Below are positions 46,159-64,000 of a DNA stretch of 64,000 nucleotides, one piece after another. The position numbers and the translations under genes were made by a program. Positions within the stretch are counted from its first letter, which is position 1. Every line of letters begins with the position of its first letter. The stretch is taken from the NCBI GenBank assembly GCA_020631235.1, contig JAHDHQ010000019.1:22013-86012 (forward strand), in the 5' to 3' direction. The DNA is from Saprospiraceae bacterium. Its GTDB lineage: Bacteria; Bacteroidota; Bacteroidia; Chitinophagales; Saprospiraceae. Under the pieces are notes generated by a model. The model ran no database searches. It had not been told where the DNA came from and saw nothing but the letters and a program-made list of their open reading frames with translations.

Positions 46159-47277
46159 TCAAATGTCAATATGGACAGATTCTTTTGAAACAACGCGATA
46201 AATGAGATCAAACCAAATGTCTTCCGTTTTCATTTTTGAAGTACCTAATCCCTTCGAATATTTATCAGCTTGAAGAAGATGGTTAAAGAATTGTTGGATT
46301 TCTTCATAGCTATAAGCATTAGCTGCGATTTTAAAGTCACGCGCAAATTTGGGGCTATACAAACCTACCTTTCTTGCAAATTCTACATCATTTAAGGACT
46401 GATAGGCTTTGGCTAATGCCACTTTTTGAAAATAGTTTGTGAGGCTTGCTAACTCTCTGACAAGTGGGTGTTCCTTTTCGTTTTCTGCAAAGTTCTTAAC
46501 GATGCTTAGTGCTTTATGTAGGTTTCTATTGGAAATAGCTGATTGTAATTCAAAGATATTGTAGTCTTTGCTCATACCTATTTGCTCATAGACTAAGTCT
46601 CCTTTAATCTCTCCTCCTTCCTCCACCATGAGGCACAGTTTATCCACTTCATTTACTATTTTACTTAAGTCTACACCTGTTTTACTAGCAATAATCATGG
46701 CTGATTTAGGGTGGATTTTTTTTCCTTTTGATCTAACATATTGTTCTATCCACCCTGGAACTTGATTATCATATAACTTTTTTGACTCGAAAAATAGGCT
46801 GTTTTTAGCTAATGTTTTAAACACCTTTTTTCGCTTATCTATGGACTTTTTATAGGATATGGCAAGGATGGTGTGAGTAGAAGGTTTTTCAAAATAGCTG
46901 AGCAATTTATCAAAGTCTCTCATGAATTGTGCTTCCTTGAGCAGTACAACTTTTCTTTCTGCCATCATGGGAAATTGTCTGGCATGATCGACTACCTGTT
47001 TAAATTCTACTTCTCTTCCATACAGTGCTACTTGGTTAAAAGCTTTTTCTGATTCTTGCAAGATCTCATTTTCGATGGCGTAAATGATTTGATCAATGTA
47101 ATGAGACTCTTCACCATATAGAAAATAAATGGGAGCTAGCTTGTTGTTTTTTATATCTGCAATTATCGATTGGTGATTCAAAGTAAGCTTGTGTTTTATG
47201 CAAAGGTACAGATTGGTGATGCATTTTTTATGATCTTGCATCACTTGATTATTTGTTTGGTTGTATGGACTTAGCAC
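46159..47277 (-). CDS. holA: DNA polymerase III subunit delta
   Basis: LAPIYFLYGEESHYIDQII; overall delta architecture; likely starts at an internal Met. Confidence 0.88.
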   Translation of the reverse strand: MLSPYNQTNNQVMQDHKKCITNLYLCIKHKLTLNHQSIIADIKNNKLAPIYFLYGEESHYIDQIIYAIENEILQESEKAFNQVALYGREVEFKQVVDHARQFPMMAERKVVLLKEAQFMRDFDKLLSYFEKPSTHTILAISYKKSIDKRKKVFKTLAKNSLFFESKKLYDNQVPGWIEQYVRSKGKKIHPKSAMIIASKTGVDLSKIVNEVDKLCLMVEEGGEIKGDLVYEQIGMSKDYNIFELQSAISNRNLHKALSIVKNFAENEKEHPLVRELASLTNYFQKVALAKAYQSLNDVEFARKVGLYSPKFARDFKIAANAYSYEEIQQFFNHLLQADKYSKGLGTSKMKTEDIWFDLIYRVVSKESVHIDI

Positions 47278-47308: not shown

Positions 47309-47582
47309 CCGATGTGGCGCGATGACCCCCGATGTACCCGATGAACCCCGATGAACCCCCGATGAACCCCCGATGAACCCCGATGAACCCCGATGAACCC
47401 CCGATGAACCGTGGGTTATCGTGGGTTATCGTGGGTTATCGGAGGTTATCGAAGATTTTGCCCAAATAAAAGTGAGCCAGTGCGGCCCCGATGAAACCCG
47501 ATGTCCCGTGGGTTATCGTGGGTTATCGTGGGTTATCGGAGGTTATCGAAGATTTTGCCTTAATAAAAGTGAGCCAGTGCGG
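47309..47582. repeat. hairpin-repeat locus A: (CGATGAACCC)n arm plus (GTGGGTTATC)n arm, second arm block duplicated
   Basis: About 10-bp units of CGATGAACCC(C) then GTGGGTTATC x3 + GGAGGTTATC; a 77-bp block occurs at 47409-47485 and 47506-47582, differing mainly at CAAA/TTAA. Confidence 0.93.
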
Positions 47583-47651: not shown

Positions 47652-47681
47652 GTTCTCTAGTACGGCCCCGTACTAGAGAAC
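47652..47681. repeat. perfect 14-bp inverted repeat downstream of the giant T9SS gene
   Basis: GTTCTCTAGTACGG-CC-CCGTACTAGAGAAC. Confidence 0.85.
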
Positions 47682-47713: not shown

Positions 47714-50700
47714 CTATTCGATGATGATCATCTTTTTTGTTGCTTTGTAATCTCCACTTTCTAATGTATAATACACTACGCCGTGCATGTTTAATTCATT
47801 TTGATTTATTGAAATAGTGTTTTCTCCTTGCGCGTACTCTCCTTGTATTTTTTTGAGTATTCTTCCTGTAACATCATGAAAGCTTATCGTTGCTTGGTCT
47901 TGACTAGGCAAAGAAAATCTAATCGTGGTCTGCTGCGCAAATGGATTTGGTTCGTTTTGAGCCAAGTTGTACATTTCTTGTTCAGCGGCTAAATTAACTT
48001 TAAAAATTTCAAGACTTTCTGTGTAGGCTTCTGCCTGAGTCAAAGTAGAGTTTATGCTAAGGTTATTTTCTCCATCTTGATATTCAGAGCCAGTAAATAT
48101 TAAGCTAAACAAGACTTCTTCTTCTGATGCTGTTATTGCTTGAAGTGTATTCCAACTTATTGTTGTGGTTTCTTTGTTTATCGCTCCAATAAACTCATCG
48201 GTCAATCCAATCGAACCAGGAACAACTGAGCTTAAATTTATCCCATCATGTACTAGTGTAAACTGAAAACCAGCTATCGCTTGGAAATTTTTAGCTGTAA
48301 TATCAAATACTATTTCCTCCTTTGTGTTGCCTTCTTTCTCAGTAATCAAAAAGTCTACAGATTTGTTTGATCGTGTATCGGCATCTTCATTGGCGTTTAA
48401 AATAACGCTGGCATTTACATCACCTATTTTAATCCCTATGAAATCCAAGAAATCTTCGTGTTGTTGTAGTTGCGCAATGCTTAAAATTTCATCAAAATTG
48501 TAAGGATTTGCCATGGATAAATTTTGATTTGCGTCGGCAAATCTCCAACTATCGTTATCAGGAAGTTCGTCATAAACTCCCAAGATGAGTTTTCTTAGTT
48601 CAGATAAATCAAAAGCCGTTATGGCTTGATCATTTGAAACATCAGCTGCGATCAATTTATATGGACTATCTAGACTAGAAACACCTAAGATATGTCTTTG
48701 TATAATCACGATATCTAGAGTACTTACACCATTTAGATAATCAATATCTTTCTCAGCTTCAATGGCATAAGAAACACCATTTAAATGATTATTAGTTAAA
48801 TACTGGCCATTATCATCAGTGCTTGCTGCCACTGGGTAGTCTGGTTGGTTTGAATTTACAGAAACGGATACATTTTCTATATCTTTCCCAAATTCAGTAG
48901 AGACTACACCACTAATTCTTGAACGATTAAACAATACATCATCACAATTATCATTGTTGTCTATCAAGTTGATATTGACCTTGCAAAAATCACTATTCCC
49001 GCATTCGTCCCATATGTATATTTCTACGGGAATTAAACCATCTGCCGAACTTTCCAAATCATCACAAGTCAATACTAATGATGTGCATTGTGTATTTTCA
49101 TCATAAGCTGGATTGCTATTATCAGGTATATCATCTGCTCCAAAGCTAAATCGCAAATCTTCTGCTACTGTACAATTATCAAAAGATCCTAAATCCATGT
49201 CACAAGCCCAAATCTCGAGTGCACCATTAGACATTAAAGCCGTACTAATATCCACACAATATGGAGTAGGTGCTTTTTTATCTTCTATAGTGAAGTAGCT
49301 AGTGCCACTGGTTACATTTCCACAACCATCACTTGCTTTCCAAACTACTCTGTGTTCATATTTAGAAGCTGGAAGATCTTCTGGTAATACTATTTCCATA
49401 GGCACACAAGAAGCGCTTGGTGGAATGTACAATTCATTGATAGGTGTGCCAAAGTTTTGATCGAATTGTGACACATAACTACTAAATTCATAATCAGTTG
49501 TCCAATCACTCCATAGATCTACAAACGCTTGCCATTTTATCCAATCACTCATACAGTCACCTGCAATATCACATCCAGTAGCAACCAATACTGCTTCTCC
49601 TTTTTTAGCTATACAATCATTATCAACAGCTATGCAAATAGTGTCTAATTTTAATTCAGGTCCTTCCTCATCAAAGAATTTCAATACTTGAGTGTGCTTA
49701 AAAGTACTATAACTTATATCATCATCTGTCCCAAATAAACCATCAGGACCTGCATCATCATCATATCTTTCTTCGATACAATAGTTTACTAAAGTCCAAT
49801 GATTTAGAACTTTAAAGCATGCTCCATCAGGATTTTCTGGACTGGTGCCTTCCTCGAAAAAGAAGGTATCACTTATTAAGTTTAATCCGATTAAATCACA
49901 AGTTTCGGCAGGCCAAGAAGGCTCTTCATGTTGGTAAGTTTCACATACAATTTCCTCATCATCAGGCCAATCTATAAAATTAGCACAATACGGTTGTTCT
50001 TCGTCAACACATCCTTTAAATACATATTCTGATGCTCCGGTCGCTTCATCAAATGTTTCTAAAGGTCCACCTGGCCAAGTTGGATCCCAGCAAGATTCCC
50101 ATTCAACCGTGATTAATTGTTCGCATTCCACTCCAAACCATTCTATCACTTCACCTGTGAGACTATCTCTTGAAAGTGCAACATCAAATGTTCTTCTAAT
50201 GACTCCTTCATTACATACTTCATCAAATCCACCTAAATAAGCATCATTTTTAATGGCAACATCTAACATTTCGCAATTACCAGCTGCAAAAGCAGCACCT
50301 GATTTACTCAAATCATCTGGATCCCAACCACAACAAATGGTAATATCTGGCGGACAAACGATATTAGGCACCTTGTCTTCTACCCTGATATTTATCCATG
50401 TATCGGTGTGATTATCATCTGCTGTATTAGGAATCATATCCGAACCACTGTCCCAAATTCTCAATATAACTTTATGAATTCCATAGGCTATAGCTAGCCC
50501 AGTGGTAGCATCCACGCCAGTGCTGTCTAAATCCATGCAACAAAAAGTCACATAATCTCCATTGTCATTATCATTATTATTATCATCAGTGTCGAAGTTA
50601 TTATTAAACGTTAGATTATTATTGTAGCCATTATTACCTTCATTAAAGCAAGTAGGGGCTCCAGCAACTCTTCTGACTTCAAACCTCACTGGCCCACAAT

Positions 50701-52888
50701 TTCCATCATGACTTCCATTATCTAATTCGTCGGCATAAATTTTAGCTACTCCATCTTCTTCGACAAATGGTGAGCCCGATAAACCTACTACTAAATTCTC
50801 TAGGACTATTGGTGTAGGTGGAACATCATCGATCACGTGGACAAGTACATCTACTGTACCTACATTACCACAACAATCTTGAGCATGATACTGGTAAATA
50901 TGATCTCCTTTCGGAGCACCAACTACTTTCCATGGAGCTTTACCGTCCTCATTAATCGAAGAAATTGTTCCTGGTCCAGTCACCCAATATTCCTCAACAT
51001 GAGAACAGTCATCTTGGATATGGTCAGGTGCATTTAATGGGAAATCCCCTAAACAGGTCCAAGGATCTATCCCTCCTGAAAACTCATGTACAAGCAAACT
51101 AGGTGGATCTTTATCTACACTTTTTATGACTTGTGTAAAAGTGATATAATCTTGCGAACACCAATCCAATAGTGTCCAAGTTCTAATCACTTTATGATTA
51201 GTCATACAAGATGGATCATCACCACAAACTGGAATAATTTGATCCGTATAACTTGCATAGATGCCACAAACATTATTAGAAATTGCTTGTGGATGCAAGC
51301 CTCCATCGCAACCTTTTGCCATATAATATGGATAAGCCACTTCATTTCCTTCATGGTTTTCTATTACATCAACATCACACCCTAAATCAGTTGTCGCTTC
51401 CAAATCAAAATATGCTGCAATGGCCTCTGGTGAAGTATCGTGTCCACAGGGCAAATGTACCGCTGTGTCTGGCCAAAATGTTTCAAACAATTGCATAGGT
51501 TCAAAAAGAATGACTTGAGTACAAGTATCTGTTAATGGTCCATGCGTTCCTTCTTGTAGAGCTACCCAAGTTCTGGTAAGTTCCACTGGACTGCATGCTA
51601 CATGATCAGGATCTAAATAATTATAGCTATCATGATATGTTAGCTCATATTCACTACATTCCAAAACTTCCGGAGCAGGCAGACACAGATCATTCCAAGA
51701 ATCACTAGTAAGTGCTTTGTCTAGTTCATAGCACTTAAATATACAAGGTGTAGTTAGTGCGCAAGGTCCTTCAAAATTCCAAGTATAAATACCCATTTGT
51801 CCAGTTCCCCACGTGCTGGTAACTAGATAGTATACGGTACCTTCATTTAAGTTTACAGTAAACGATGGTTCTGATTCGAAAACACCCGGTATATCATCAT
51901 CCCCAGCAATCAAGTTGTCACAAGAATTTAAGGGATCAAATGCTCCTTCATAAATACCTGCAATTCCATCTATATCATCATTATTCTCCATAGTGAAGGT
52001 AAACTCTCCATCACAAGGTGCTGTAAATTCTATAAGGTCATATAAGGTTCCCGGCATTGGAGCGCCTCCATCAAAAGCCCAGCAAATGGCATCTGGATCA
52101 AAACTAGGATCAGTATCATCCAAAGATGAGACAAGATTTGTTAAATCGCACATTGGCACCTCACAATTAATTTGCGGTGCTATTTTGTCTTCAATACATA
52201 TTTCACCCCAACAACTATTAGTAGAACATTGGTCATGCACTTCGAAATTCATGCATTGCCCTAAAAATGGGTTGAGATTATCACCAGGCCTTAATGTATC
52301 ATTTTCGGGAGTGATAATCATAGCATCAAAGAATGCGTTATAGTAATCAGCATTTGCTTGACCACAAATGAATGGTTCTCCTTCTAAAAATGTAGATGCA
52401 TCAAATGCTCCTTCGCATATTGCATTTAAACCCAGTGTGATTTTATCATTACACACCATAGCATCAGAAGTATGCACAAAAACCATAAACTCCTCACTTA
52501 AAGAAGCACAATCTGCATCATCGTCATTAATTGCTTCAATGACAAAACTGCTGCAGAGCATCGAGGTGTTTGTTGCTAACTCTATTATTTCTGCTCCATC
52601 ACTGTCTGAATCAGGAACTGACAAAATTAATGCTCCATCTTGATAAACATTAAAAGTCATATTTACTGGTACAGGAGCTACAAGCACATCAATATTTACT
52701 GGTTCACCATCACAAGCGAATTGTGAAATAGGTTGAGTAATAAAAACGGGAATATCACCTGTTAGCGCCTCCTTACTGTCATAATGGGCATTACTCAAGG
52801 ATGTTGCATCAGCGTTTTGAAAAAATAAGGCAACTAAGCAAATCGCACTTAGCACCTGAATCGTTCGGCTTTTAATAAGGGTAATCAT
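47714..52888 (-). CDS. giant secreted T9SS protein (HYR-like, Cys-rich; dockerin-like and T9SS C-terminal domains)
   Basis: 1724 aa; signal peptide; C-terminal region with DVSNDQAITAFDLSELRKLILG and NEPNPFAQQTTIRFSLPSQ...GVVYYTLESGDYKATKKMIIIE. Confidence 0.88.
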   Translation of the reverse strand: MITLIKSRTIQVLSAICLVALFFQNADATSLSNAHYDSKEALTGDIPVFITQPISQFACDGEPVNIDVLVAPVPVNMTFNVYQDGALILSVPDSDSDGAEIIELATNTSMLCSSFVIEAINDDDADCASLSEEFMVFVHTSDAMVCNDKITLGLNAICEGAFDASTFLEGEPFICGQANADYYNAFFDAMIITPENDTLRPGDNLNPFLGQCMNFEVHDQCSTNSCWGEICIEDKIAPQINCEVPMCDLTNLVSSLDDTDPSFDPDAICWAFDGGAPMPGTLYDLIEFTAPCDGEFTFTMENNDDIDGIAGIYEGAFDPLNSCDNLIAGDDDIPGVFESEPSFTVNLNEGTVYYLVTSTWGTGQMGIYTWNFEGPCALTTPCIFKCYELDKALTSDSWNDLCLPAPEVLECSEYELTYHDSYNYLDPDHVACSPVELTRTWVALQEGTHGPLTDTCTQVILFEPMQLFETFWPDTAVHLPCGHDTSPEAIAAYFDLEATTDLGCDVDVIENHEGNEVAYPYYMAKGCDGGLHPQAISNNVCGIYASYTDQIIPVCGDDPSCMTNHKVIRTWTLLDWCSQDYITFTQVIKSVDKDPPSLLVHEFSGGIDPWTCLGDFPLNAPDHIQDDCSHVEEYWVTGPGTISSINEDGKAPWKVVGAPKGDHIYQYHAQDCCGNVGTVDVLVHVIDDVPPTPIVLENLVVGLSGSPFVEEDGVAKIYADELDNGSHDGNCGPVRFEVRRVAGAPTCFNEGNNGYNNNLTFNNNFDTDDNNNDNDNGDYVTFCCMDLDSTGVDATTGLAIAYGIHKVILRIWDSGSDMIPNTADDNHTDTWINIRVEDKVPNIVCPPDITICCGWDPDDLSKSGAAFAAGNCEMLDVAIKNDAYLGGFDEVCNEGVIRRTFDVALSRDSLTGEVIEWFGVECEQLITVEWESCWDPTWPGGPLETFDEATGASEYVFKGCVDEEQPYCANFIDWPDDEEIVCETYQHEEPSWPAETCDLIGLNLISDTFFFEEGTSPENPDGACFKVLNHWTLVNYCIEERYDDDAGPDGLFGTDDDISYSTFKHTQVLKFFDEEGPELKLDTICIAVDNDCIAKKGEAVLVATGCDIAGDCMSDWIKWQAFVDLWSDWTTDYEFSSYVSQFDQNFGTPINELYIPPSASCVPMEIVLPEDLPASKYEHRVVWKASDGCGNVTSGTSYFTIEDKKAPTPYCVDISTALMSNGALEIWACDMDLGSFDNCTVAEDLRFSFGADDIPDNSNPAYDENTQCTSLVLTCDDLESSADGLIPVEIYIWDECGNSDFCKVNINLIDNNDNCDDVLFNRSRISGVVSTEFGKDIENVSVSVNSNQPDYPVAASTDDNGQYLTNNHLNGVSYAIEAEKDIDYLNGVSTLDIVIIQRHILGVSSLDSPYKLIAADVSNDQAITAFDLSELRKLILGVYDELPDNDSWRFADANQNLSMANPYNFDEILSIAQLQQHEDFLDFIGIKIGDVNASVILNANEDADTRSNKSVDFLITEKEGNTKEEIVFDITAKNFQAIAGFQFTLVHDGINLSSVVPGSIGLTDEFIGAINKETTTISWNTLQAITASEEEVLFSLIFTGSEYQDGENNLSINSTLTQAEAYTESLEIFKVNLAAEQEMYNLAQNEPNPFAQQTTIRFSLPSQDQATISFHDVTGRILKKIQGEYAQGENTISINQNELNMHGVVYYTLESGDYKATKKMIIIE

Positions 52889-55616: not shown

Positions 55617-55833
55617 CTAAGATTGATTGTATTGATTATTTGCTGAAGTAAAGCTTGCATTTCAACAATAAAGAGCAAAGGTAGCTAGAAGCTTAATTTA
55701 ATTGACATTATATAAAGATTATTTATATATTTTTTAAAATTATGCTTGCGCATTATCGAATACGTGGTTTTATTGGTATATTAATCGTATTGGGTTTCAA
55801 TTTTTATTGGAAGTCATAAAAAAGGGTATACAT

Positions 55834-56526
55834 ATGAAAATCATTTTTGCTTTGCTGTGCGTAACAGCGTGCTTGCTTGCTTGTGGGCCGAACAAGGCTG
55901 ATGTATTAGCTAAATACCAGCAATTAGACACTTTTGTTGATCACCGGGATTATCAAAGTCTTTATTCTGAATTAGACCAAAAGTCTCAAGCATTTATCCA
56001 AGAATTAGTTAACGAAAAAGAAATCGATTATCAACAAAGTCGGAAATTAGGCAACCGCTATCGCCTACCACTTTTTTGTGCCATATATGCTTTTGAAATT
56101 TCAAGAGAAATGGATCAAGCAACTAATAAGGAATCTTTATTCTTGCATTATCTGAGTTTGAGTGACTTACCGATTTTAGGTAGCACAAACGAAAGCACCG
56201 TTCACATTAATAATGCATGGGTAGGTGATGAGTCATTTGTTTTAGCTAATCAAGTGATAGACGAACATATGACCATCAACCAAAAAGTAATATTCACTCA
56301 AGATTCCTTAAGAAATTTTAAACTTGACCTTTTGTCTCTATTAAAATTAAATGAAAGTCAGTTAAAATTGCAATATGACACTTTTCTTAAGGAATATGCT
56401 GGGAAGTTAGTTGATTCACAAAAAGGCTATGATATGTTGCCTTATTTTTTGGAGAATAGGGATACCCCGATGAAGCGGAGCTTATCGGAGGAGTTCCCCG
56501 ATGAAGCACCGATGAAGCACCGATGA
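55834..56526 (+). CDS. hypothetical lipoprotein; C-terminus encoded by repeat array B
   Basis: MKIIFALLCVTACLLACGPNK lipobox; last codons (TPMKRSLSEEFPDEAPMKHR*) lie within the repeat. Confidence 0.6.
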   Translation: MKIIFALLCVTACLLACGPNKADVLAKYQQLDTFVDHRDYQSLYSELDQKSQAFIQELVNEKEIDYQQSRKLGNRYRLPLFCAIYAFEISREMDQATNKESLFLHYLSLSDLPILGSTNESTVHINNAWVGDESFVLANQVIDEHMTINQKVIFTQDSLRNFKLDLLSLLKLNESQLKLQYDTFLKEYAGKLVDSQKGYDMLPYFLENRDTPMKRSLSEEFPDEAPMKHR

Positions 56527-56780
56527 AGCACCGATGAAGCACCGATGAAGCACCGATGAAGCCCCGATGAAGTCCCGATGAAGCCCCGATGAAGCCCCGA
56601 TGAAGTCCCGATGAAGCGGAGCTTATCGGAGGAGTTCCCTTGTGAATCGGATTATCGGAGGAGTTTCACGGTGAATCGCATTATCGGAGGAGTTTCACGG
56701 TGAATCGCATTATCGGAGGAGTTTCCTGGTGAGGTGCTGATGAATCGGATTATTGGAGGAATTTCCTGGTGAGGTGGAAC
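56465..56780. repeat. hairpin-repeat locus B: eleven 11-bp CCGATGAAGNN units bracketed by CCGATGAAGCGGAGCTTATCGGAGGAGTTCC, then 29-bp GGAGGAGTTTCACGGTGAATCGCATTATC units
   Basis: Direct reading; units begin at 56498 and then every 11 bp to 56608. Confidence 0.95.
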
Positions 56781-56784
56781 TTAA

Positions 56785-57204
56785 TTAGAGTTGTTGTGGT
56801 AGTAATTGGTTTTTCAGAATAAAGTTAGCGGCTTCTTGTCCCCAAAGTTGATAAGTTAAGGCAGAAGGGTGAACACCGTCGCTAAAAAATGGGTGTTGGT
56901 ATGTATCGTGAGGTACTTTATGTTTCCAATCCTTTCTAAGGAACGACCTAACATTTCTACCCAAGATCCTATGGTGCGTTTAATGGTTTTAGTAAATGCC
57001 GGAAACTCTTTAATGGGTGGCATATTTATAAATAGTATGGGTGATTTTGGGTGTATATTTTTTAATTGTGTGATGATTCCAGAGATATGTTTATTCCATT
57101 TTTTGGGCGATGTTAAAGTAAAGGCATCATTACCTCCTAGTCCGATAACAATTAGATCAATGGATTCTTCTTGTATTTTTTTTAGTAATCTCTTTTCGAC
57201 ATGT
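56785..57204 (-). pseudogene. SGNH/GDSL-hydrolase-like pseudogene (5'-truncated and frameshifted)
   Basis: Minus-strand translation: LHVEKRLLKKIQEESIDLIVIGLGGNDAFTLTSPKKWNKHISGIITQLKKYTPKSPILFINMPPIKEFPAFTKTIKRTIGSWVEMLGRSLERIGNIK // frameshift // DTYQHPFFSDGVHPSALTYQLWGQEAANFILKNQLLPQQL*; no start, upstream side is tandem repeat. Confidence 0.82.
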
Positions 57205-57241
57205 AGTATTTAGTATTTAGTACTTAGTATTTAGTATTTAG
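57204..57241. repeat. 7-bp tandem repeat (TAGTATT)n
   Basis: tagtatttagtatttagtacttagtatttagtatttaga at the truncated 5' end of the pseudogene. Confidence 0.88.
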
Positions 57242-57478
57242 ACTTTACCTCGATGAACCTAGCGGTTATCGAAGGTTATGTTTGGGTAATGTCAGCTTTG
57301 ATGGATTAGACCTCGTTGAACCTAGCGGTTATCGAAGGTTATGTTTGGGTAATGTCAGCTTTGATGGATTAGACCTCGTTGAACCTAGCGGTTATCGGAG
57401 GTTATTTTTGGGTAATGTCAGCTTTGATGGATTACCCGTGATGAACTTAGTGGTGGCCGAAGGTTATTTTTGGGATTG
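57241..57478. repeat. hairpin-repeat locus C: about 3.7 copies of a 63-bp unit containing CGATGAACC-TAGC-GGTTATCG
   Basis: Copies at 57241-57308 (variant), 57309-57371, 57372-57434, then a degenerate copy. Confidence 0.94.
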
Positions 57479-57489
57479 CCAAAAATAAA

Positions 57490-57521
57490 GAGCCCCGACT
57501 AAGCTATGCTTGTCGAGGCTC
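57490..57521 (-). terminator. intrinsic terminator of the giant adhesin gene
   Basis: GAGCCCCGAC[t]AAGC-tat-GCTTGTCGAGGCTC hairpin; minus-strand 3' side TTTATTTTT. Confidence 0.75.
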
Positions 57522-57587: not shown

Positions 57588-60500
57588 TTACTTCACAACA
57601 TTTAATTTCTTGATGAATACTTGTTCGTCCACTCTAATTTGTAAGTAGTACGTACCAGCTGGTAGACTTGTTACATCTAAAATTAAGTGGTCATTATTCA
57701 TCGTTGTATCTGCGTTATCCAATGCAACCGATTGTCCTTTGCTATTGTAAATGTTTACATCTAAGGTAGCTGAAGCATCTGCTCCGTCTAATGTGATGTT
57801 TACAAATTCAGCGGCAGGGTTAGGATATACATTGATATCTATCATTTGCTCTACTTCAGACTTTTCTACTTTGATAGCAATCGTCTCACTGTGATTAAAG
57901 CTACCATCTGTATCTACATCTCTTAATCTGTAGTAGTATGTTCCAGCTACATCAAGATCAGTATCTTGAATTGTGTATGTAGCATTTGCAATTCCTTGAG
58001 CATTAATTTCAGCAGTAATATCATTCCAAGGCTGACCTTCGTATGATCTTTCCACAACATAATGCGCTGTATTAATTTCTGATAATGCTGACCAGTAAAG
58101 GTTAGCTAAATCCTCTTCTGCTTTGTACTCACCCCAGAAGCTATTTAATTCCGCTGCAACTGTAATTGTTACACCAGCATCAAACGACAGATCTTCTGTT
58201 CCTGGAGTTACTGTAAATGGTGCTGTACAATCGTCTAATGGATCAACATCACTATCAAAATCATCATTACCCATATTGAAATCAACAAATGCATAAGTTA
58301 TCTCATCAGTGTTTGGCGGAAGAGTAAATTTCAACTTATACTCTTTCGGAGCCATATCACAGAATAAGTACTTACCCTCTGCATCTGTCATCATAGAAGC
58401 TTCTACATTTCCAGTTTCTGTACAAACTAACTCAACAAATACATTTGCTAAACCATCTTCATCAGAATCTTGCATGTTTGGTGTATCGCTATCCAATTTA
58501 TCAACCCACACATAATCTCCAATCTTCACTGGCTCGAATAATCCTGCATCGATGTTAGGATTGTTATCACCTGCGTTAATAACTACTGGGTTAGATATTC
58601 CTGTATTTGGATCTACGTCACTATCCATATCCGGCATTGAACCACCCTGAGCATTTTGCTGAGTGAAGATATATGCACCTCCTGGAGATGTAAACTTCAC
58701 TTGGTAAGTACCTGGAGTCAAGTTAGTGAACTCATAGAATCCGTTACTATCTGTAGTTGTAGGTGCTCCGACCATGTTTCCAGCAGCATCTAGTAACATT
58801 ACTTGAATGTTAGCGATACCGTTCTCGTTAGCATCTTGTTTTCCGTCACCATTGGTATCGTACCATACATAATCTCCTAGTGAAGCAGTCTGGATAAATC
58901 CAAAGTCAACTGACTTATTAGAGTTATTATCTGCATCTCCATCAGAGATTGGTTCGTTACCGAATGTTAATGTAACACCCATACTTGCTACTTGGCCATT
59001 AGCCATTTCGTATCCGTTATCATCATTATTGATGTTATCATCTGGATCTGAATGTGCTGGTGTCGAAGTGACTGCATTTGCTAATGCGCCTCCTGTATTG
59101 AAGTTGCTATTATCCACTACAACGATGTAGTCTCCTTCAGCTAATCCTTCGAAACAGTACTCACCATTTGCATCCGTAGTTACACTTGAAACGAAAGTAT
59201 CTGGAATATCATCACCGTTTGTATCCGTGTATAAGTTTAATAAAACTCCACTGATTACTGATTCACCAGCGTCAAACATTCCATTATCGTTAGCATCCGA
59301 GAAAACAAGGTTTCCGACTGAAAGTGACATTGGGCTAATAGCCTCACCATCACCATCATCATCATCTGAATCATCATCTTCAACATTTCCATCACCATCA
59401 GTATCTACACCATCTGCTGGTGTACTATCGATATCCTCCTCGTTCATCTCTGTTACTTCTGCAAGGTTCAAGTAATCTCCTGTAGCATTAACAGTTACTA
59501 CCATTTGTAGTGTTTCTGTCTGTCCTACGTTTAATGTTCCAATGTTCCAGTTACCTGTTGCACTGTTGTATGTTCCTTGAGATTCAATTGTACTTACTAA
59601 TGTGTATCCTGAAGGTAACTGATCCGTAACCATAACGCCTGTTGCGATGCTTGGTCCAGAGTTTCCAACTAGTACAGTAAATGTGATATTCTCACCTACA
59701 CCTGGAGTTTCGTTGCTTACTGATTTCTCTAAGTAAACATCCGCTACTTGAACAGGAGTTACTTCTTCACCGTCACCATCATCATCATCGTTATCATCTA
59801 CAACATTTCCATCACCATCTGTATCTACACCATCACCTGGTGTACTATCGATATCTTGCTCATTCATCTCTGTCACCTCTGCAAGGTTCAAGTAATTTCC
59901 TGAAGCATTTACTGTTACTGTCATTGTCAAGTATTCCACTTGTCCAACGGCAAGGGTACCTACTGACCATTCGCTCGTTGTAGAGCTATAAGCTCCTTGA
60001 GTTGCTGAATCAGATACAAGTGTATAACCTGAAGGTAACTGGTCTGTTACAACCACACCTGTTGCAGTACTTGGTCCAGAGTTACCTACTTCTACAGTAA
60101 AGGTAATTTGGTCTCCCACATTTGGTGTAGCATTATCAACACTCTTCTCTACGTAAACATCAGCCACTGCACTTGGGAATACTTCAGCATTATCCTCATC
60201 ATCTTCACTTTGATCTCCATCATCATTATCTGGTTCAGAATCAGCATCCATTTCATTGTGCTCACTAACTTCTGCAATGTTCAAGTAGTCACCTGAAGCA
60301 TTTACTGTTGCCGTAATCATCAATGTTTCTGTTTGCCCATTAGCTAAAGTACCTAATGTCCATATTGAAGTACCGTTACTGTACGATCCTTGAGAAGCAG
60401 TATTCGATACATAAGTATAACCACTTGGCAATTGATCAGTAACTTCTACTCCTGTTGCTGGGTTAGGTCCATCGTTTCCAACTGTAATCGTAAAGATCAC

Positions 60501-63500
60501 GTCATCACCAATATTAGGTGTAGTGTTGTTAACTACCTTCTCTAACCATACATCCATTCCATTAAGTAGTCCGGCATCAACAGTAAGGTTGATATCACCT
60601 GACTCCAATGTATACTTTCCTGTCAATCCAGTTACTGGATCAGCATCACTATCTACCTGATCATTACCTGGTACATTGTCTTGATTAACAAACGTACAGC
60701 CATCTGGTGCTACGAACTCTACGATATACTCACCAGGAACTAAGTTGCTGAATAAGTATTCACCGTTTACATCAGTAGTTGTAGATTGTAACAAGTTACC
60801 AATCGTTCCACCTACACAATCGTATAATAATACCGTAGCGTTTGGCACACCTGCATCTCCACCATCATACTCATCTGGAGCACCACCTGGAATATCTTTC
60901 CATACTTGGTTACCTAAGCTTGCTGGAGCAAATAGACCGAAATCCACAGTCATATCTCCGTTTGCATCATCTGTCGCATCTTGATCACCACCTTGGAACG
61001 ACTCATTTACTGGCTCATCTCCTAATGATAAAGTAATAACTGGTGAGGTAATCATAGTACCAAAACCATTTGGCTGGTCACCATTGTCATCACCGTCTTC
61101 TTGGTTATCATTAATGTCTGTAGGTGTACTACTAGCACTGTAGAAGAATGGCACAACTGGGATCATAATCTCGTATTGACCAGGAGCCAAGTCACCAAAG
61201 AAATAATCTCCGTTTGCATCTGTAACTGTAGTAGCTAATATATTACCATCTAAATCTTTCAATTGTAACATTACGTTTGCAATACCATTATCACCTGGAT
61301 CCTGCATACCGTTGTTGTTCATATCTTCGAATACCGTCGATCCAATGCTCATACAAGAAGCTTTAGATATTGTTTGTGACTCAGTAGATACATTATCACA
61401 AGCATCTGTCACTGTCCATGTTCTTGTAGTAGAGTCACCGTCCACATCATCTGAAACAACTACTGTCAAATCAGAGGTTGCTGTACAGTTATCATCGAAA
61501 GTTGGTTCGCTGAATGGAGGCATCTCTTCATCACAAGCATATTCGATGTCATCGCCTACACCATTAATCGAAGGACTTTCGTTATCCGGTAATCTTGTGA
61601 TCGTTTGACTTACTGTCACATCGTTACCACAAGCATCAATGGCTGTCCACGTCTTAGTCATCACACCACCTTCACACTCATCGTATGAACCTGTTACTGA
61701 TTCAGTTACTGTAGGAGTACCACAATTATCTGTTGCAGTAGGATTACTAAATGCTGGTTCAACTTCATCACATTCGAAAGTAAGGTTATCACCTAATCCA
61801 ACAAATACTGGATCAATTTCATCTGCTTGTCTTCCGAATACTGAAGTACAATTATCAGCTGTACCACATCCATTATCTACCACATTGTATGTAAAGCTTA
61901 TTGATTGTCCACAATCAAGAGCTAATACATCACTTAATGTTGGTAGTTCGTTTAAGTTGTCACTTACGTTACAACCTCCTGTATATCCAAATGTTGCTGC
62001 CCATGCATTATAGGCATCAGCCATTTCTTCTTCCGTTGCACAAGCTAATACATTTGTATCAGTTGGGCAGTTAGCTTCTACTTCTTCACCTGCATCTCTT
62101 GTAAATGTGCTAGTACATTCATCTGAACTCTCACATGAAGTTCCTACACCACTGTTTACAATGTAAGTGAATGACATTGACTCACCACAAGCTAAATCAA
62201 GTGCATCTGTTAATGTCGGTAGTTCAGAGATATTTGATTGTACATCGCAACCTCCAGCGAATTCGAATCCTGCAGCCCATGCATTGTATGCTGCTGTAAT
62301 TTGTGCTTCAGTACTACATGCATCAAGCACTTCATTTGCTGGGCATGATGCTACTACATCTGATCCTACAGCAATTCCGAATGTGCTTGAACACTGGTCA
62401 GAATTTTCACAAGTTGTACCTGCACTTGAAGTTACTGTGTATGTAAAGTCAACTGACTCACCACATTCTAAATCAAGTACTGCACTTAAACTAGGGATAT
62501 TTGCGATATTATCAGTAACATCACAACCTCCGCTGTATGTAAATCCATCAACCCATGCATTATATGCCTCAGTAATCTCTGCATCTGTACTACATGCTGT
62601 CAGGTTAACATCCGTACTACACTCCGCTACAACTGAACTTCCTTGCGCTATTCCAAATGTACTTGTACATTCATCTGTGCTCTCACAAGAAGTACCTGCA
62701 CCGCTAGTAGCTACATAAGTAAAGCTTACTGACTCACCACATTCTAGTGCTAGGATATCTGCCAATGTCGGTGCATCTGCTATGTTATCACTAATGTTAC
62801 AACCACCAGTTGCTTCAAAACCTGCTATCCAATCATTGTATGCATTTGTTATGATAGCATCTGAACTACATTCTGTAACATCTACAGCATCTGGACAAGT
62901 TGCAACTACATTAGTTGCAATTCCTATGCTAAATGTAGCAGTACAATCATCTGAACTTTCACAAGCTGTACCTGCACCACTTGTCACTACATATGTAAAG
63001 TCAACTGACTCACCACATGATAATGCTAACACATCTGTTAATGATGGTGCATTTGCGATATTATCTGTTACTGTACAACCTCCAGTCGATCCGAATGCTG
63101 CAATCCAAGTATTGTATGCTGCTGTAATCTGCGCATCTGTGCTACATGCATTCAGGTTCGGATCCGTTGCACATTCTGCTACTACATCACTTCCTGCTGC
63201 TATACTAAATGTAGCATTACAATCATCTGTACTTGAACAAGCCGTTCCTGCTCCACTTACTACTACATAGTTAAAGCTTACTGATTCTCCGCATTCTAAG
63301 GCTAATACCTCAGCTAAGGTCGGTGCATCCGCTATGTTATCTGTAACACCACATCCACCAGTAGAACCAAAGTCACTAATCCATGCATTATATGCTGCAG
63401 TTATTTGCGCATCCGTGCTACATGCATCCATTACTGGATCTGCTGCACATTCTGCTACTACATTACTTCCTGTTCCGATGCTAAATGTTGCATCACAATC

Positions 63501-64000
63501 ATCTGTACTTTCACATGCGGTTCCTACTCCACTTGTCACTACATAATTAAAGCTTACTGACTCACCACACTCTAAAGCTAATACCTCAGCTAAGGTCGGA
63601 GCATCTGCTATGTTATCTGTAGTTGTACATCCTCCGGTAGATCCAAAGTCACTTATCCAAGTGTTATAAGCTGCAGTAATTTGCGCGTCTGTGCTACATG
63701 CATCCATTACTGGATCAACTGCACATTCTGCCACTACATTAGTTCCACCTGAAATGCTAAATGTAGCATCACAGTTATCGGTGCTTTCACAAGCTGTTCC
63801 TACTCCACTTACTACTACATAAGTAAAGCTTACTGACTCACCACACTCTAAAGCTAATACTTCAGCTAAGGTCGGTGCATCTGCTATGTTATCAGTAACA
63901 GTACATCCTCCAGTTGATCCGAAGTCTGATATCCATGCGTTGTAAGCTGCAGTGATCTCTGCATCCGTGCTACATGCATCCATTACTGGATCAGCTGCAC
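57588..64000 (-). CDS. giant T9SS adhesin-like protein (HYR-like Cys-rich repeats, SdrD_B-like and DUF11 repeats, T9SS C-terminal domain); 5' end beyond window
   Basis: Frame stays open to the window edge (…AADPVMDACSTD); ends INVYPNPAAEFVNITLDG...GTYYLQIRVDEQVFIKKLNVVK. Confidence 0.93.
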   Translation of the reverse strand, partial: AADPVMDACSTDAEITAAYNAWISDFGSTGGCTVTDNIADAPTLAEVLALECGESVSFTYVVVSGVGTACESTDNCDATFSISGGTNVVAECAVDPVMDACSTDAQITAAYNTWISDFGSTGGCTTTDNIADAPTLAEVLALECGESVSFNYVVTSGVGTACESTDDCDATFSIGTGSNVVAECAADPVMDACSTDAQITAAYNAWISDFGSTGGCGVTDNIADAPTLAEVLALECGESVSFNYVVVSGAGTACSSTDDCNATFSIAAGSDVVAECATDPNLNACSTDAQITAAYNTWIAAFGSTGGCTVTDNIANAPSLTDVLALSCGESVDFTYVVTSGAGTACESSDDCTATFSIGIATNVVATCPDAVDVTECSSDAIITNAYNDWIAGFEATGGCNISDNIADAPTLADILALECGESVSFTYVATSGAGTSCESTDECTSTFGIAQGSSVVAECSTDVNLTACSTDAEITEAYNAWVDGFTYSGGCDVTDNIANIPSLSAVLDLECGESVDFTYTVTSSAGTTCENSDQCSSTFGIAVGSDVVASCPANEVLDACSTEAQITAAYNAWAAGFEFAGGCDVQSNISELPTLTDALDLACGESMSFTYIVNSGVGTSCESSDECTSTFTRDAGEEVEANCPTDTNVLACATEEEMADAYNAWAATFGYTGGCNVSDNLNELPTLSDVLALDCGQSISFTYNVVDNGCGTADNCTSVFGRQADEIDPVFVGLGDNLTFECDEVEPAFSNPTATDNCGTPTVTESVTGSYDECEGGVMTKTWTAIDACGNDVTVSQTITRLPDNESPSINGVGDDIEYACDEEMPPFSEPTFDDNCTATSDLTVVVSDDVDGDSTTRTWTVTDACDNVSTESQTISKASCMSIGSTVFEDMNNNGMQDPGDNGIANVMLQLKDLDGNILATTVTDANGDYFFGDLAPGQYEIMIPVVPFFYSASSTPTDINDNQEDGDDNGDQPNGFGTMITSPVITLSLGDEPVNESFQGGDQDATDDANGDMTVDFGLFAPASLGNQVWKDIPGGAPDEYDGGDAGVPNATVLLYDCVGGTIGNLLQSTTTDVNGEYLFSNLVPGEYIVEFVAPDGCTFVNQDNVPGNDQVDSDADPVTGLTGKYTLESGDINLTVDAGLLNGMDVWLEKVVNNTTPNIGDDVIFTITVGNDGPNPATGVEVTDQLPSGYTYVSNTASQGSYSNGTSIWTLGTLANGQTETLMITATVNASGDYLNIAEVSEHNEMDADSEPDNDDGDQSEDDEDNAEVFPSAVADVYVEKSVDNATPNVGDQITFTVEVGNSGPSTATGVVVTDQLPSGYTLVSDSATQGAYSSTTSEWSVGTLAVGQVEYLTMTVTVNASGNYLNLAEVTEMNEQDIDSTPGDGVDTDGDGNVVDDNDDDDGDGEEVTPVQVADVYLEKSVSNETPGVGENITFTVLVGNSGPSIATGVMVTDQLPSGYTLVSTIESQGTYNSATGNWNIGTLNVGQTETLQMVVTVNATGDYLNLAEVTEMNEEDIDSTPADGVDTDGDGNVEDDDSDDDDGDGEAISPMSLSVGNLVFSDANDNGMFDAGESVISGVLLNLYTDTNGDDIPDTFVSSVTTDANGEYCFEGLAEGDYIVVVDNSNFNTGGALANAVTSTPAHSDPDDNINNDDNGYEMANGQVASMGVTLTFGNEPISDGDADNNSNKSVDFGFIQTASLGDYVWYDTNGDGKQDANENGIANIQVMLLDAAGNMVGAPTTTDSNGFYEFTNLTPGTYQVKFTSPGGAYIFTQQNAQGGSMPDMDSDVDPNTGISNPVVINAGDNNPNIDAGLFEPVKIGDYVWVDKLDSDTPNMQDSDEDGLANVFVELVCTETGNVEASMMTDAEGKYLFCDMAPKEYKLKFTLPPNTDEITYAFVDFNMGNDDFDSDVDPLDDCTAPFTVTPGTEDLSFDAGVTITVAAELNSFWGEYKAEEDLANLYWSALSEINTAHYVVERSYEGQPWNDITAEINAQGIANATYTIQDTDLDVAGTYYYRLRDVDTDGSFNHSETIAIKVEKSEVEQMIDINVYPNPAAEFVNITLDGADASATLDVNIYNSKGQSVALDNADTTMNNDHLILDVTSLPAGTYYLQIRVDEQVFIKKLNVVK
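59340..60560 (-). repeat. three tandem DUF11-like domain repeats with Asp-rich linkers
   Basis: (A/M)DVYxEKxVxNxTPNVGDxITFTVxVGNSGPSxATGVxVTDQLPSGYT...; linkers DGVDTDGDGNVVDDNDDDDGDGEEVTP. Confidence 0.85.
61810..64000 (-). repeat. eight tandem 276-bp (92-aa) six-cysteine repeats, array continuing past the window
   Basis: Same landmark (catccattactgg) at 63425, 63701, 63977: exact 276-bp spacing; consensus DACSTDAQITAAYNxWISDFGSTGGC... Confidence 0.93.

Follow-up and report, generated by a model that had tools for sequence, protein, structure and literature searches.

REP elements and BIMEs are repetitive extragenic palindromes that have been described as GTAG and CGTC superfamilies (PMC3733652). 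In Bacteroidetes, TnpA-Y1 subclass 2.6 has associated "atypical secondary structures" (PMC6006769). Within the window, the 64,000-nucleotide stretch of a Saprospiraceae genome analyzed here, an array of short repeats at 47309-47582 (locus A) is best classified as a palindrome of REP-like or terminator type, specific to its lineage, with arms that would have expanded separately. An Rfam search of the window matched no curated family at the gathering score, and a literature search in which the journals were mostly outside subscription returned no description of this hairpin family. Below, G000 denotes the window's own genome, and G001 and G002 denote the other two genomes of its genus.

Upstream of the array is a gene for a T9SS-sorted protein of 1,724 aa (47714..52888, minus strand; TIGR04183), and downstream of it in the direction of transcription is holA, encoding DNA polymerase III delta (46159..47277, minus strand; start codon uncertain; TIGR01128). 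Just past the stop of the T9SS gene is a perfect inverted repeat, GTTCTCTAGTAC..GTACTAGAGAAC (47652..47681, minus strand), which is conserved in G002 and is probably the terminator of that gene, separate from the array. Locus A is placed between this repeat and holA, and termination at locus A would be redundant, since a probable terminator precedes it. The array is centered on the element proper, CGATgAACC-GTG-GGTTATCG (47402..47421, plus strand), a bulged hairpin matched by covariance model R1 at 47398-47428 with 31.2 bits. The left-arm tandem (47309..47410, plus strand; sequence and TRF) has seven clean units of CGATGAACCC(C), with the form CGATGAACC(C)(C), which adjoin the core hairpin, and three degenerate units (CGATGTGGCG, CGATGACCCC, and CGATGTACC) at the outer edge; TRF reports CGATGAACCCC x8.8 at 47320-47410. 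The right-arm tandem (47411..47451, plus strand; TRF) comprises four TATCG units, namely GTGGGTTATCG, two of TGGGTTATCG, and GAGGTTATCG, and is reported by TRF as CGTGGGTTAT x4.2 at 47410-47451, repeated at 47507-47548.

Sequence and TRF thus agree with the preliminary description that a two-arm array is present here. It gave seven to eight left units; seven are clean, and counting the degenerate ones brings the CGATG units of the left arm to 10. The repeated unpaired G that it noted is found in the left arm, and every right-arm unit additionally has its own unpaired T (GGGTTATCG-T). A downstream duplication was also correctly recognized: a segment carrying the right arms and flank recurs with a 97-bp period over 47388..47582 (plus strand, 2.0 copies), the second copy having two left units only and an R1 match at 47485-47545. 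From its 93% matches (TRF), this duplication looks recent.

Locus A is not unique, with two sister arrays in the window and more elsewhere in the genome. What recurs is a ~22-nt bulged hairpin, CGAYgAA-tip-loop-tip'-TTRTCG, found in intergenic regions in tandem arrays or singly. The foot, CGAYgAA..TTRTCG, is common to unrelated loci, while the tips vary by locus and pair inside each hairpin; in the alignment and loci, the right flank mostly reads GRAG then A/G, and the left flank CT or CC. Array B (56466..56776, plus strand; TRF and R1) has the hairpin CCGATgAAGC-GGA-GCTTATCGG and 11-nt left-arm units at 56498-56617, followed by degenerate units. Array C (57247..57474, plus strand; TRF and R1) consists of a 63-bp unit x3.6 with the hairpin CTCGATgAACC-TAGC-GGTTATCGAAG. 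Elsewhere in G000, arrays occur at C41 with a 35-bp period, at C6 with a 33-bp period, and at C1 next to the tmRNA gene. Many hairpins are adjoined by heptanucleotide tracts, e.g., (TTAGTAY)n or (TTTAGAC)n, as are the palindromes around a RAYT gene described below (window 57204-57241; G000 C41, C42, C36, and C6:40.8 kb).

Pattern counts were well above background: G000 gave 28 matches (3 with the reversed control), and the window gave 7 (0.06 expected). In an alignment of 17 hairpins, standard pairs filled 95.4% of pair cells (82.9% in shuffles), covariation was 0.386 (0.149 in shuffles), and both sides had changed in 25 cells (8.8 in shuffles); shifting the pairing partner by 1 to 3 columns abolished the signal. 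The strict 5'-bulged form fits 31 family hairpins in the array loci examined, compared with two bulge-less matches that look like chance, a statistic that is partly circular because the locus-finding model itself contains the bulge. The bulge base is mostly G and sometimes A or T.

The hairpin family is restricted to one genus. R1, which was built from the 17 hairpins, all within the genus, so that distant variants could escape it, gave 29, 10, and 13 matches in G000, G001, and G002, respectively, and 0 to 2 weak matches in each of 88 other relatives. In a class sample of 198 genomes, only the window's own genome was matched at E<=0.001 (0/197 others). A loose pattern, CGATGAAN{3,25}TTATCG, run over 120 relatives yielded mostly chance matches outside the genus and was set aside in favor of the covariance model. 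A collection scan with the strict form likewise returned mostly coding or chance matches, e.g., a recurrent coding-looking one in Trichococcus, and, in addition, a tandem array in one Saprospiraceae MAG.

Comparison of congeners demonstrates that hairpin sites have been gained and lost. The holA gene of G002 is 89% identical to that of G000, and its intergenic site has a single hairpin, CGACgAACC-TCA-GGTTGTCG, and a few partial units. The G002 orthologue of array C is also a single hairpin. Array B is present in G000 and absent from G002, where the upstream open reading frame (ORF) stops short of the site. In the window, the 3' end of this ORF (55807-56526) runs into array B; since its G002 counterpart does not reach the site, the array has altered the C terminus. 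A purA/methyltransferase array and the C25 hairpins occur in G002 only, and the C6 antiporter array occurs in G000 only; the antiporter gene ends in a plain terminator, AAAAAAGGCAGCTC..GAGCTGCCTTTTTT, in G002 versus a six-unit hairpin array in G000. In seven orthologous hairpins of G000 and G002, with pairs entered by hand, 7 pairs were changed on both sides, 0 on one side only, 5 were broken, and 63 were unchanged. The same sites are filled, empty, single, or expanded in close relatives, which makes it possible to trace how small palindromes arise, expand arm by arm, and perhaps come to serve as terminators.

The anatomy of locus A suggests how such an array may form. Runs of the left arm alone occur with 11-nt units in array B (56498-56617) and with 8-nt CCACGATG units in G002 C46, evidence that each arm can expand on its own. 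Replication slippage at one bulged hairpin would have tandem duplicated each of its arms separately, a step read from the unit structure at locus A, and the 97-bp segmental duplication would have followed arm expansion. Since the arms of a single hairpin are already complementary, separate duplication would give a long bulged stem without selection, and we infer that the long stem of locus A is a consequence of arm duplication rather than a selected structure. That stem is real: against 200 dinucleotide shuffles, the plus and minus strands of the locus both folded better, with respective z values of -6.94 and -7.68 as RNA and of -6.34 and -7.71 as DNA, and 0/200 shuffles folded as well. The expectation that folding would surpass shuffled controls (z of -6.3 to -7.7 overall for RNA and single-stranded DNA) was therefore borne out. 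The preliminary description's single long stem is foldable, with a bulged G every ~10 pairs, and beats chance, but it has the look of a by-product and is not conserved in G002. Its link between the ~10-bp period and the helical turn is unnecessary, since one period is one arm length. As for the long stem, it is a local curiosity, and the recurring object is the single bulged hairpin; duplicating the arms of one hairpin can yield, as a by-product, an array that folds strikingly well.

We favor, with moderate confidence, the reading that locus A is one member of a set of genus-specific small palindromes that would act through RNA, as hairpins at 3' ends or as terminators, and that the array at 47309-47582 would have originated by arm-wise slippage. 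Most loci have the hairpins close to or at the 3' end of a neighboring gene; at the tmRNA gene, by contrast, it is the 5' end that the hairpin abuts. Some copies are terminator shaped, with a GC-rich stem and T tract and folding z values of -6.0 to -6.8. One is the family stem GAGCCTCGACAAGC-ATA-GCTTaGTCGGGGCTC followed by TTTAT (57490..57521, minus strand), after the T9SS gene at 57588; the others are its G002 orthologue, which ends CUCUUUUUUU, T7, and the hairpin at G000 C26:287707, which is flanked by A6 and T6. This shape was not seen in the C6 array or at locus A, the T tract is missing from most array copies, and a simple terminator scan did not flag the C6 array. The bulged arm is opposite to neighboring transcription at ~11 of 13 to 14 independent loci with clear direction (two-sided binomial P of 0.02 to 0.06; counted by hand and after the fact). 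The T9SS-sorted ORF beyond the window's terminator-shaped copy (57588-63983; 2,131 aa) has 276-bp repeats (62711-64000) and DUF11 / SdrD B-like domains.

It is possible, albeit unlikely, that the origin is purely mutational, with template switching at quasi-palindromes making or repairing the arms and slippage multiplying them, and with no function. Template switching can create stems and produce multi-base compensatory changes (PMC8794818), and the altered pairs of the orthologous hairpins, all two-sided or broken, are what such a process could leave. However, switching between arms should tend to erase the bulge, yet the bulge is kept. The sharing of one foot by unrelated loci also argues against this origin, and neither restriction to one genus nor terminator-shaped stems are predicted by it.

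It is quite improbable that a REP-associated tyrosine (HUH) transposase (RAYT) uses the hairpins as its DNA substrate and spreads them. E. coli REPs likewise carry a GATG../..TTATC imperfection. The hairpins share this resemblance, are small, dispersed, extragenic, imperfect palindromes in multiple copies, at times form inverted pairs (tmRNA locus), and have been gained and lost between congeners; moreover, G000 has one true RAYT (NF047646, 96.7 bits), which carries the motifs NHIH / WQ / YIHQNP of TnpA-Y1 subclass 2.6. However, this gene is flanked by different palindromes, CTCAGCTTGYAGCTGAG, with 20 copies in G000, and no family hairpin within 10 kb of it, or next to the two Y1 genes of G001, scored above noise with R1. 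G002 has 13 hairpin matches with no Y1_Tnp detected, and no GTAG/GTGG or CGTC tag was found at the foot in the hairpin alignment or loci. We rejected the RAYT link on adjacency and copy distribution; spread by a RAYT is not supported now, and past spread by an enzyme since lost might have taken place. The CTCAGCTTGYAGCTGAG palindromes form a second family, found around the RAYT (C24; L030, L197), at C6:40928-41256, and at C29, with 20, 5, and 0 copies in G000, G002, and G001, respectively (<=1 mismatch).

Rather than a RAYT, a putative genus-specific factor (a nuclease, an RNA-binding protein, or a non-RAYT transposase) might recognize the bulge and foot and spread or use the hairpins, which would then be mobile palindromes independent of RAYT that supply terminators; we consider this a distinctly doubtful reading. 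A GIY-YIG (URI) nuclease was considered as a partner and rejected: hairpins follow its gene at G001 C79 and at the tmRNA locus in both G000 and G002, but none follows it at G001 C26, G001 C54, or G002 C21, so the link is not general. Small genes of this type lie beside tmRNA or tRNA genes in the genus (L163, L168, L173, and L175), and the tRNA-side copies look decayed. A function for the periodically bulged long stem itself, as RNA or as a cruciform with helical phasing, is very improbable despite how strongly both strands fold, whether as RNA or as DNA, considering that the orthologous G002 site folds like shuffles (z = -0.62) and that the sister arrays expanded one arm only.

The favored palindrome with a 3'-end role has features in common with each of the described systems. 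Like intrinsic terminators, some copies are GC-rich stems with a T tract at 3' gene ends, and one array occupies the place of a congener's ordinary terminator; unlike them, the family has a bulged foot conserved across loci, tandem arrays, and mostly no T tract. With TnpA-Y1 subclass 2.6 (PMC6006769), it shares the host phylum and the presence in G000 of a protein with the subclass motifs, but the palindromes of that gene differ in sequence from the hairpin family. It also resembles REPs and BIMEs (PMC3733652), which are likewise imperfect intergenic palindromes of 20 to 40 nt in many copies, with tandem clusters and occasional inverted pairs, and for which roles in termination and mRNA stability have been proposed, as for this family. 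In comparison, the family lacks a GTAG/CGTC tag and a linked RAYT and has tens of copies only, its tips differ at nearly every locus, and its arms appear to expand separately.
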